Assembly (NCBI RefSeq): GCF_001656295.1
Contig: NZ_LXHE01000006.1
Span: 1 to 64,000 of the forward strand
Direction: 5' to 3'
Length of the DNA: 64,000 bases
Origin: Moraxella catarrhalis
Lineage (GTDB): Bacteria; Pseudomonadota; Gammaproteobacteria; Pseudomonadales; Moraxellaceae
A program made the translations under genes and the position numbers. Below the pieces are notes generated by a model, which saw only the letters and a list, made by a program, of their open reading frames with translations, searched no databases and was not told the DNA's origin. Position 1 is the stretch's first letter, and the number at the start of each line of letters is the position of its first letter. Below are positions 41,699 to 46,344 of the stretch, in pieces.

Positions 41699-43825
41699 AT
41701 GCCAACCGATCTTCTTTTACGCAACACTGTGCTTGATCCGCGCCTGCATTTGGTGGATTTTGATCAAGCCACGCCTGATAAGCTTGAGCAGCTGACCGAG
41801 CAAGCTTTGGAGGCTGCCACCAAGCGCCTTGATGAGATTGAGGCGATGCAGGCGGTGAGCGATGCGACCAAGGCATTTGACATTATCCAAGAATTTCATG
41901 ACTCAGGCGAACAAGTTGAACGGTATTTTGGCGTATTATCACATCTAAACAGCGTGGCAAGCAGTGATGAGATCCGTCAAGCGCATCATCACGTTTTGCC
42001 AAAGCTGTCTGCTTTTGGGACGCGCCTTGGGCAATCGGTTCAGTTATTTTCACTGTATCAGCTCGTTGAGCAGAATTTTGATCAGCTGCCCAAAGCGTAT
42101 CAAAGCACCGCCCAAAAGCGCGCCATCGAAAAAGCCTTACGCAGTTTTCGTCTGTCAGGCGTGGCACTAGAGGCGGACAAAAAAGCCGAGTTTGCCGATA
42201 TCCAAAGTAATCTGTCTTTGGCTTCGGCAAAGTTTGCTGACAATATCATGGATGCGACGCGTCATTTTGTCAGACCGCTACGCGCAGATGAGCTGTCAGG
42301 CATCAGCGACAATGGCTTGGCGCTACTAAAATCGGCAGCGCAGACTTACCGCGCCGCCCATCCAGATGCTAAGCTTGAGACGGACTATGTGGCGACACTA
42401 GACATTCCGATGTATCTGGCGGTGATGCAGTTTGCTGATGACCGCGCGCTGCGTGAGGCGCTGTATCATGCTTATAATACGCGCGCCTCCGACCAAAGCC
42501 CAGATACCACCGAATTTGACAACGCACAAATCATGGTGGATATCATCAATCTGCGCACCCAAAAAGCCAAGCTGCTTAGCATGCAAGATTATAGCGAGCT
42601 GTCACTTGCTACCAAGATGGCTCATGATAGCGATGAGGTTGAGCAGTTTTTGTTGGCATTAAGCCAAGCTGCCAAGCCGCAAGCTCATGCCGAGTACCAA
42701 GAGCTCAAAGAATACGCCCAAAGCTTGGGTCTAGATGAGCTTAAGCCTTGGGATGTGGCTTATGTCAGCGAAAAAATCCGTCAAGCCAAATTCAGCCTGA
42801 CCACCGATGAGCTTCGCCCTTATTTTCCGCTGCCGATTGTGCTAGAAGGCTTGTTTGAGATTTGCCACAGATTATTTGGCATCAACCTATCAATCGCCGA
42901 GCCAAGCAGCTATTCAGCTTGGCATCCAGATGTGCTGTTTTGTCTGATCCACGATGTAGACAGCGGTGAGCTGCTGGGCGGTCTGTATCTTGATTTGTTT
43001 GCCAGAGCTGGCAAGCAAGGCGGTGCTTGGCTGGACGATTTTCAAAAGCGCCAAGTCAAAGGCGATGAGGTGCGCCTGCCTGTTGGATTTATTGTGGGCA
43101 ATTTTGCGCCGCCGATGAATGATAAACCAAGCCTGTTATCTTTTGATGAAGCCAATACTTTATTTCATGAGTTTGGTCATGCCCTGCATCACCTGCTGAC
43201 GACGGTGGATGTCGCCGATGTTGCTGGCATCAGCGGTGTGGAGTGGGACGCGGTGGAGCTGCCCAGTCAGTTTATGGAAAACTTTGCCATCACCGATGAA
43301 GGTCTGCGCTTAATCAGCCGTCATGTGGATACGGGCGAGCCCTTGCCAAGCGATAAAAAAGAAGCACTCATCGCCGCCAAAAATTTTCAAACAGGTCTGC
43401 AAACGCTGCGCCAAATGGAGTTTGGTCTATTTGATCTTAGACTACACACCGCTAAGATGTTAAATTTTGGGCAAGTGACTTATCCTGACATCTTATCGGT
43501 AGCAGACACAGTGCGTGATGAGGTCGCGTTAGTCATACCGCCTAAATATCAGCGCTTTGCCAATAGCTTTAGCCATATCTTTGCTGGGGGTTATGCGTCG
43601 GGGTATTATTCTTATATTTGGGCGGAAGTGCTCTCGGCAGATGCTTTTGGCAAATTTGAAGAAGACGGGGTGTTTAATCCCACCACAGGTCGGGCGTTTC
43701 GCGATGAGATTTTGGCACGAGGCAGCGCTCGCGACGCTCAAGATAATTATGTGGCATTCCGCGGGCGTAAGGCTACTCAAGATGCGCTGCTGCGCCATCG
43801 CGGTCTGATAAGCCAAGGAAGCTGA
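41699..43825 (+). CDS. prlC: Oligopeptidase A (M3 family metallopeptidase)
   Basis: This 708-residue cytoplasmic zinc peptidase degrades oligopeptides, including cleaved signal peptides. The zinc motif HEFGH is at residues 490-494, with the third ligand Glu expected in the GISGVEWDAVELPSQ region that follows. The C-terminal FSHIFAGGYASGYYSYIWAEVLSADAF is typical of M3A enzymes. AGGG lies upstream of the ATG. A short YheV-like gene starts 3 bases after the stop. Confidence 0.95.
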   Translation: MPTDLLLRNTVLDPRLHLVDFDQATPDKLEQLTEQALEAATKRLDEIEAMQAVSDATKAFDIIQEFHDSGEQVERYFGVLSHLNSVASSDEIRQAHHHVLPKLSAFGTRLGQSVQLFSLYQLVEQNFDQLPKAYQSTAQKRAIEKALRSFRLSGVALEADKKAEFADIQSNLSLASAKFADNIMDATRHFVRPLRADELSGISDNGLALLKSAAQTYRAAHPDAKLETDYVATLDIPMYLAVMQFADDRALREALYHAYNTRASDQSPDTTEFDNAQIMVDIINLRTQKAKLLSMQDYSELSLATKMAHDSDEVEQFLLALSQAAKPQAHAEYQELKEYAQSLGLDELKPWDVAYVSEKIRQAKFSLTTDELRPYFPLPIVLEGLFEICHRLFGINLSIAEPSSYSAWHPDVLFCLIHDVDSGELLGGLYLDLFARAGKQGGAWLDDFQKRQVKGDEVRLPVGFIVGNFAPPMNDKPSLLSFDEANTLFHEFGHALHHLLTTVDVADVAGISGVEWDAVELPSQFMENFAITDEGLRLISRHVDTGEPLPSDKKEALIAAKNFQTGLQTLRQMEFGLFDLRLHTAKMLNFGQVTYPDILSVADTVRDEVALVIPPKYQRFANSFSHIFAGGYASGYYSYIWAEVLSADAFGKFEEDGVFNPTTGRAFRDEILARGSARDAQDNYVAFRGRKATQDALLRHRGLISQGS

Positions 43826-43827
43826 TC

Positions 43828-44061
43828 ATGCGTTATCAATCCAATCGCCCAAAGCGGCAATTCTTGGCAGGGGTAGCCTGCCCAGCTTGTAAAAAAATGG
43901 ATGTCATCGTCCAAATCCAAGTATTTGAGCCTGACTATGATGAATATATTGAATGCATTGAGTGTGGGCACAATGAGCGCCGCCCCACGCCTGATGAGAC
44001 CGCCATCATCCAAGCTCAAAATGCCAAAGCCGATGGTGTGGGCGTGGTGAAGTTTAAATAG
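43828..44061 (+). CDS. YheV family putative zinc ribbon protein
   Basis: This 77-residue protein begins with a basic stretch and then RQFLAGVACPACKKMD. C18 and C21 pair with a later CIECGH to make a zinc ribbon of the YheV/TIGR02443 type. The function is unknown. It is probably translated from the prlC message, since only 2 bases separate the prlC stop from its ATG. Confidence 0.85.
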   Translation: MRYQSNRPKRQFLAGVACPACKKMDVIVQIQVFEPDYDEYIECIECGHNERRPTPDETAIIQAQNAKADGVGVVKFK

Positions 44062-44074
44062 TTTTCAACCCTAA

Positions 44075-44105
44075 AAACATCCTAGTCTTAAAGACTGGGA
44101 TGTTT
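44075..44105 (+). terminator. Terminator of prlC and the YheV-like gene
   Basis: A long hairpin AAACATCC-AGTCTT / AAGACT-GGATGTTT with one internal mismatch lies 14 bases after the stop. The T run is short. Confidence 0.6.
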
Positions 44106-44160
44106 GATCAACTTTGGATGTTTAATAAGTTAATAGTTATAGCATAGAAAGGAGGCTGTT

Positions 44161-44830
44161 ATGCTAAGCAAAGTATCAATCATTGGTTTTTTATCACTGT
44201 TAACCATCGCTTGCACTGATACAAGCGCCGCCAAAACTAATAGTGATCCTAACGCAATTTCTGGATCATCAAATATTTCTTATAACAAACAAACAAAATT
44301 TTAATTCGCTAGACCCGGAAGATGATCCAAAAATGGTTGGCACAAATGTGCTTGGCTTTAAAATGCAAGATTCAACTTTTGAATCTGTTAAAAAACGTCT
44401 TCTAAATTACCAATTTAATGAGCATCATCAATCTTATGCTGGTGGGTATCTCTTAGAAAATGACGGATCTGGTTTTGAATTAGAAGGTTTAAACCATACA
44501 CAATTTGGCTTTGATACCGATCAAAAATTGGTCTATGTATTTATGCAAATTCATGAATCTGATCATTTAAATCACACAACTTACAATAAAATTGTTTCTT
44601 ATATTAAGAATAATAACTATAAGATTATTCGCACAATCGATCCTTTTGTTGGTGATCGAAAAACCGAATTTCAGACACCTAATAATGAAATTATTGTTGT
44701 GGAATCGCCGCACATGGGTAATTTTAATGTTTATGTTGAATATTATACAAAGGAATTTGGTAGAATGCGTCAAGAGGCGCAACAACTCGAAAACACTCAA
44801 CAAAGCCAGATAGAAGCCAAAAATTTCTAA
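44161..44830 (+). pseudogene. Frameshifted lipoprotein gene, possibly phase-variable
   Basis: A perfect AAGGAGG precedes the ATG at 44161. That frame encodes a lipoprotein signal (LTIAC, cysteine at residue 18) and a polar linker, then stops at 44304 after 47 codons. The following 530 bases are open in the +1 frame to 44830. They encode a soluble domain that would need the missing signal: TNVLGFKMQDSTFESVKKRL, HQSYAGGYLLEND, and VVESPHMGNFNVYVEYYTKEFG. The switch falls at three CAAA repeats (44286-44297). Removing one repeat unit, or one base, fuses the two parts into a protein of about 220 residues. The +1 frame alone would start from a GTG at 44243 without a signal. I do not recognise the domain. 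Confidence 0.75.
44286..44298 (+). repeat. CAAA tetranucleotide repeat (three units)
   Basis: Three tandem CAAA units plus an extra A lie exactly where the lipoprotein reading frame breaks. Tetranucleotide slippage is a known phase-variation mechanism in Moraxella and Haemophilus, but three units is short. Confidence 0.5.
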
Positions 44831-44836
44831 ATCAAT

Positions 44837-44868
44837 AAAAAACCGAGCCACATAGCTCGGTTTTTTTT
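44837..44868. terminator. Bidirectional terminator between the lipoprotein gene and lpd
   Basis: The stem AAAACCGAGC / GCTCGGTTTT with a 6-base loop has A and T runs on both sides, so it serves both convergent genes. Confidence 0.88.
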
Positions 44869-44880
44869 ATTAATCATTAA

Positions 44881-46344
<1,464 letters not shown>

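Follow-up and report, generated by a model that had tools for sequence, protein, structure and literature searches.

The window analysed here, a 64-kb stretch of DNA taken as a whole, contains a lipoprotein gene that is divided between two reading frames (Table 1). Its 5' frame encodes 47 residues before a TAA at 44302-44304 and carries the signal peptide and lipobox MLSKVSIIGFLSLLTIAC, behind which it continues as a hydrophilic linker; the +1 frame is open downstream up to its stop at 44830 and carries the domain. The original prediction had placed the ribosome-binding site, start codon and lipobox in one frame that stops at codon 48, with the rest of a good coding sequence in the +1 frame and three CAAA units followed by A and T runs in between, and in these respects it was accurate: the units lie at 44286-44297, ahead of four A and four T, and the +1 frame has homologues in 13 other genomes. 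Lipoboxes were judged by eye on a rule of the PROSITE type, according to which the 5' frame has a type II signal peptide and equivalent cysteines are found in 11 homologue frames (L003-L013). The gene upstream is one that we take to be yheV-like, with what is presumably prlC as the further neighbour, and lpd lies beyond the hairpin, convergent with the broken gene. A promoter scan of 43800-44950 returned a single site, inside the gene, which is fewer than in shuffled sequence (mean 4.0).

Table 1. Features of the divided lipoprotein gene and its surroundings, in window coordinates
Feature	Positions	Strand	Remarks
yheV-like gene	43828..44061	+	conserved upstream neighbour
Ribosome-binding site AGGAGG	44150..44155	+	read from sequence; 5 bases 5' of the start
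5' frame	44161..44304	+	ATG at 44161; signal peptide of a lipoprotein with its lipobox cysteine, followed by a linker; closes at codon 48
Interval with both frames open	44204..44304	+	frame change lies within
Period-4 tract AACAAACAAACAAA	44284..44297	+	14 bases
3' frame	44306..44830	+	conserved 174-residue domain, stop included; homologue matches; predicted fold, pLDDT 92.2
Intrinsic-terminator-like hairpin	44837..44866		readable on both strands

Where does the change of frame lie? Because the 3' frame is open from 44204 on and the 5' frame closes only at 44304, it could have occurred anywhere within about 100 bases. We computed a codon-usage likelihood for 28 candidate points (44221-44302), trained on 30 long open reading frames of the window (15,678 codons). 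This analysis assigns a weight of 0.57 to eight points at 44242-44263, with 44242 as the top single point, and 0.32 to the seven that cover the repeat together with the A and T runs (44284-44302). Inspection by eye favours the repeat: up to that point the 5' frame looks like an ordinary hydrophilic linker, and the other frame gives hydrophobic nonsense; among the homologues the linker is too variable for confident alignment. A break precisely at the CAAA repeat is therefore plausible, but the earlier claim that the shift falls ‘exactly’ there has to be widened to the whole interval, the upstream part of which is weighted more by codon usage.

The domain belongs to a family that is sparsely distributed: matches were found in 14 of 348 family genomes and 3 of 57 relatives, both counts including the window's own genome, in which the domain has a single match and hence one copy. 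Identity in the 13 other genomes ranges from 26 to 70%, and nine of them show at least 53%. Eleven of these genomes supplied the loci L003-L013, all of which encode the signal peptide, the cysteine and the domain in one continuous frame; another, G229, supplied L014 and L016, and G079, with a weak match only (E 4.6e-5), was left out. An intact copy of 70% identity is present in G008 (locus L020), a metagenome-assembled genome of an uncultured Moraxella sp., and Acinetobacter and Alkanindiges have intact relatives as well. A scan of genome contigs gave 12 loci. Acinetobacter gerneri, A. higginsii and Alkanindiges illinoisensis are among them, as are more distant loci that bear the labels Halomonas, Thermodesulfobacterium and Aquificota and reach 27-28% identity; the family takes in L029-L031 and has distant relatives outside Moraxellaceae. 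A mobile origin was considered and set aside: plasmids contributed one distant match (Hydrogenophilus, 27%), and no relative was confirmed in viral contigs. The genomes covered number one per species, and the genome-contig, viral and plasmid collections may omit records very near the window's genome, so the absence of a conspecific copy says little. Used as a DNA query, the 5' piece had no match in 27 other genomes, G008 among them.

The words PFVG, PH and F are conserved in all 13 aligned members. Neither piece of the window gene scores above a curated cut-off in Pfam or NCBIfam, and the 13 aligned members searched against Pfam have Tup_N as their best, weak match (E 0.026), whose 15.3 bits stay below the cut-off of 28.7. 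The family is a small find in its own right, a conserved lipoprotein domain of Moraxella, Acinetobacter and Alkanindiges without a Pfam or NCBIfam match. One homologue, that of G229 (L014; L016:1501-1700; genus g15, which holds Acinetobacter), is frameshifted inside the domain at an A8 run, either through a homopolymer error or through a second independent loss. This parallel may be an error, since the record is a single contig with a homopolymer at the break.

AlphaFold confidently predicts an alpha/beta fold (pLDDT 92.2, pTM 0.87) that includes a long helix at the C-terminus. Foldseek found no match in the PDB at E <= 0.001, the best being Flpp3 at 0.013, and a PDB sequence search gave two rows, both weak and without relation to the domain (E 0.05 and 0.59). 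Among 999 Foldseek-ranked chains aligned with VIA-align, the best Z was 7.8, for YjgB/DUF4309 (rmsd 5.0, 119 aligned) and PA1624 (rmsd 3.5, 94 aligned); 76 of the 999 reached a Z of at least 5 and none reached 8, a middling grade of similarity. These middling matches include periplasmic, secreted and lumenal alpha/beta proteins such as YjgB (DUF4309), PA1624, PsbP and BamC. We refrained from assigning a function by fold, since the fold matches are middling and none lies at a Foldseek E <= 0.001; the PHROGs search pointed to a single family, itself of unknown function (E 0.0043). Our guess would be a role in binding or as a scaffold, in the periplasm and on a lipid anchor. The residue after the lipobox cysteine is threonine, which by the E. 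coli sorting rule is compatible with the outer membrane. The designation as a ‘surface’ lipoprotein goes further than the lipobox allows, which supports a lipid anchor only.

Within the genus, a whole-genome search located the domain in 2 of 22 genomes, the window's own and G008. The yheV-like gene is present in 21 of the 22. In the roughly 1.5 kb examined to each side of it, the domain occurs in two of these 21, broken in the window and intact in G008, where it lies at the same place beside the presumed yheV and prlC. This distribution next to the yheV-like gene marks the lipoprotein gene as accessory. A near relative, G006 (87% by the yheV-like protein), has different DNA at that place, and the site behind yheV looks variable within the genus. 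In G006 (L035), what appears by eye to be the last part of a trimeric autotransporter of the YadA type, with long repeats, stands behind yheV on the opposite strand. No neighbour gene is common to all nine loci L020-L028, some of which lie on short contigs; neighbours are shared only by the pairs L022/L023 and L024/L025, while L022 and L025 have one gene further away in common.

We observe that the domain was under strong purifying selection until recently. Compared with L020 it gives a dN/dS of 0.134 over 172 codons, with a dS of 1.5 that is near saturation, and the differences fall 36, 23 and 86 times on codon positions 1, 2 and 3; the corresponding dN/dS values of the neighbours are 0.11 for prlC and 0.056 for the yheV-like gene. 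With the Acinetobacter locus L021 as outgroup, nonsynonymous proportions of 0.261 (window copy) and 0.273 (L020) are obtained, so that the window copy shows no acceleration relative to L020. The second half of the domain appears looser than the first (0.231 against 0.064), a contrast that comes from the single window/L020 pair and is not assignable to the window lineage. No further stop or shift occurs in the 174 codons of the domain. The dN/dS of 0.134 and the lack of acceleration indicate that the break is young; either it is recent or the gene is still in use. The frame is disrupted relative to intact homologues, as in a pseudogene, whereas relaxed selection and further lesions are absent, as expected for a recent break, and for this reason we speak of a recent null allele and not of an established pseudogene.

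The same absence of decay would be seen if the gene were intact and the record wrong at one place through an assembly or sequencing error. The domain's unrelaxed selection and lack of a second lesion suit such an error, and the break interval does hold A and T runs in addition to the repeat. Yet runs of four bases and a tract of 14 are short for any read type. The assembly comprises 26 contigs, with a completeness of 100 and a contamination of 0.08, and the listing of the window's open reading frames, inspected by eye without homologue comparison, shows no other gene that is apparently split. We consider an error in the record quite improbable.

Another possibility for a gene still in use is suggested by the junction itself. 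The last sense codon and the stop of the 5' frame read TTT TAA (within AAAATTTTAA), a ‘shifty stop’ arrangement in which a tRNA could re-pair one base on, again on UUU, during slow termination, and the domain is carried by precisely the +1 frame; leaky or programmed +1 frameshifting would then yield some full-length lipoprotein. Against this, all 11 homologue loci examined (L003-L013) encode the protein in one frame, no Shine-Dalgarno-like stimulator is seen by eye before TTT TAA, and the downstream RNA folds with a z of only -1.73, equalled by 13 of 200 shuffles. Frameshifting of this kind strikes us as highly improbable.

The CAAA tract is the sole tetranucleotide tract of at least 12 bases in the window, and it lies inside the break interval. 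Under a simple model of local composition, the chance of finding a tract of this kind in 98 bases is P = 0.0036, and the window rate, which is based on the tract itself, gives about 0.0015 per 98 bases; of 100 shuffled versions of the window, 2 attain three CAAA units. These values apply to a tract chosen post hoc, when other repeat types would have been equally noticeable, and Tandem Repeats Finder at its lowest score setting (23 rows) does not list the region. Across the window and 12 further stretches of the same genome (290,604 bases) there are eight tetranucleotide tracts of at least 12 bases; these 290.6 kb, a sample of 13% of the genome, contain no homopolymer longer than 8 and no tetranucleotide repeated four full times, period 3 being outside the count. 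The whole genome has three CAAAx3 tracts, the window's included. The other two fall within open frames (166 and 448 codons) whose motifs suggest a low-molecular-weight tyrosine phosphatase (ILFVCLGNICRSP) and an FAD disulphide reductase. A control search with the reversed pattern (2 against 3 matches; in G008, 2 against 1) was discarded, as AAAC repeats are the same periodic sequence and not independent.

Could the tract be a switch? A phase-variable lipoprotein, in which CAAA slippage reversibly alters the tract length and the assembly has caught the OFF state, would account for the tract's position inside both the break interval and the 5' frame, where its length sets the reading frame, and for the past constraint on the domain. 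Simple-sequence switches are known in M. catarrhalis, as PMC7302503 documents, and the genus relative G008 possesses one five-unit CAAA tract elsewhere. The coincidence of tract and break nevertheless suits a single mutational event no less than a switch, because slippage or duplication of four bases leaves such a tract behind. Switching would need high reversibility from three units. In this genome that number is not in itself enough for a switch, given that the other two CAAAx3 tracts lie in long open frames. No four-unit tetranucleotide tract occurs in the sequence sampled. By eye, the tract is also absent from the closest intact orthologue, L003, and codon usage points more to positions upstream of it. 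Beyond the place of the tract there is little support for switching, and we regard it as unlikely. The five CAAA units of G008 (L032:1501-1520) stand about 40 bases 5' of the start of a small membrane-protein-like open reading frame; they form the only CAAAx5 tract among the 22 genus genomes and are a better candidate for slippage than the window tract.

Published limits place three units differently. The cut-off is five units or more in both PMC6321876 and PMC5953494, the H. influenzae tetranucleotide threshold is 3, with a maximum expected length of 3 as the columns of PMC2651432 read, and the inclusion limit for M. catarrhalis is ‘greater than 2’ units in PMC7302503. The window tract thus falls below the five-unit cut-offs, equals the threshold of PMC2651432 and exceeds the limit of PMC7302503.

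We come back to inactivation. The locus is probably an allele, inactivated by a frameshift not long ago, of an accessory gene whose product in Moraxellaceae is a periplasmic protein held by a lipid anchor. The domain would have been thrown out of frame by a small insertion or deletion in the linker, which joins the anchor to the folded domain and is under no constraint; slippage during replication, or a short duplication in tandem, at the CAAA tract is quite possibly how this came about. Translation would then stop after 47 residues, the processed remnant would be a lipopeptide of at most 30 residues, and the domain would not be exported. Of the two alternatives named in the original prediction, an OFF state or a recent pseudogene, the second is retained in the form of a recent null allele, and the first is less well supported. 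The null allele is favoured over an OFF state by the conservation of the domain, the intact orthologues, the sporadic occurrence of the gene and the frameshift in an Acinetobacter copy as well, and it is economical, since one common mutation in an accessory gene suffices and G229 offers a possible parallel. On this reading the change is likely to be fixed, not reversible at a high rate, with loss of function as its probable outcome.

Two observations weigh against the null allele. The domain has neither decayed nor acquired a second lesion, so that a gene still used through switching, leaky decoding or a misrecorded base would look alike; and the position of the window's only long tetranucleotide tract within the break interval is what a switch would predict too. 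An internal re-start was rejected as the main route to the domain: a frame-2 ATG at 44333 has a weak GGAAG upstream, but its methionine is not conserved and the product would be unexported. A bolder proposal would be that the disordered linker tolerates frame noise that sets expression of the lipid-anchored domain, either because the short three-unit tract switches reversibly at a low rate or because the UUU-UAA junction lets a small share of ribosomes through; we hold this to be rather unlikely. If switching were true, it would add a lipoprotein to the phase-variable genes of Moraxella and lower the tract length thought necessary.

How does the locus compare with known systems? The prfB gene has a +1 frameshift site with a shifty stop, CUU UGA, and shares with the window a shift-prone sense codon directly 5' of the stop and the +1 direction. 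The window differs in reading UUU UAA, in having no Shine-Dalgarno-like element that we could see, and in that its arrangement is not found in the family. Like the CAAC tract of modM, as described in PMC7302503, the window tract is a tetranucleotide tract within coding sequence whose length bears on the frame. The M. catarrhalis rows for CAAC (modM) and AGAT (uspA2) in that paper comprise 13-35 units, in contrast to three in a tract that is not known to vary in length and is absent in the orthologue, and the uspA2 tract lies upstream of its gene whereas that of the window is within the coding sequence. With frameshift pseudogenes of accessory genes the locus has in common a disrupted frame, intact orthologues and a sporadic distribution, and it departs from them in being very young and still free of a second lesion. 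As such it would be an ordinary case of a gene inactivated not long ago, and it cautions against taking a repeat for a switch because a break lies close by.
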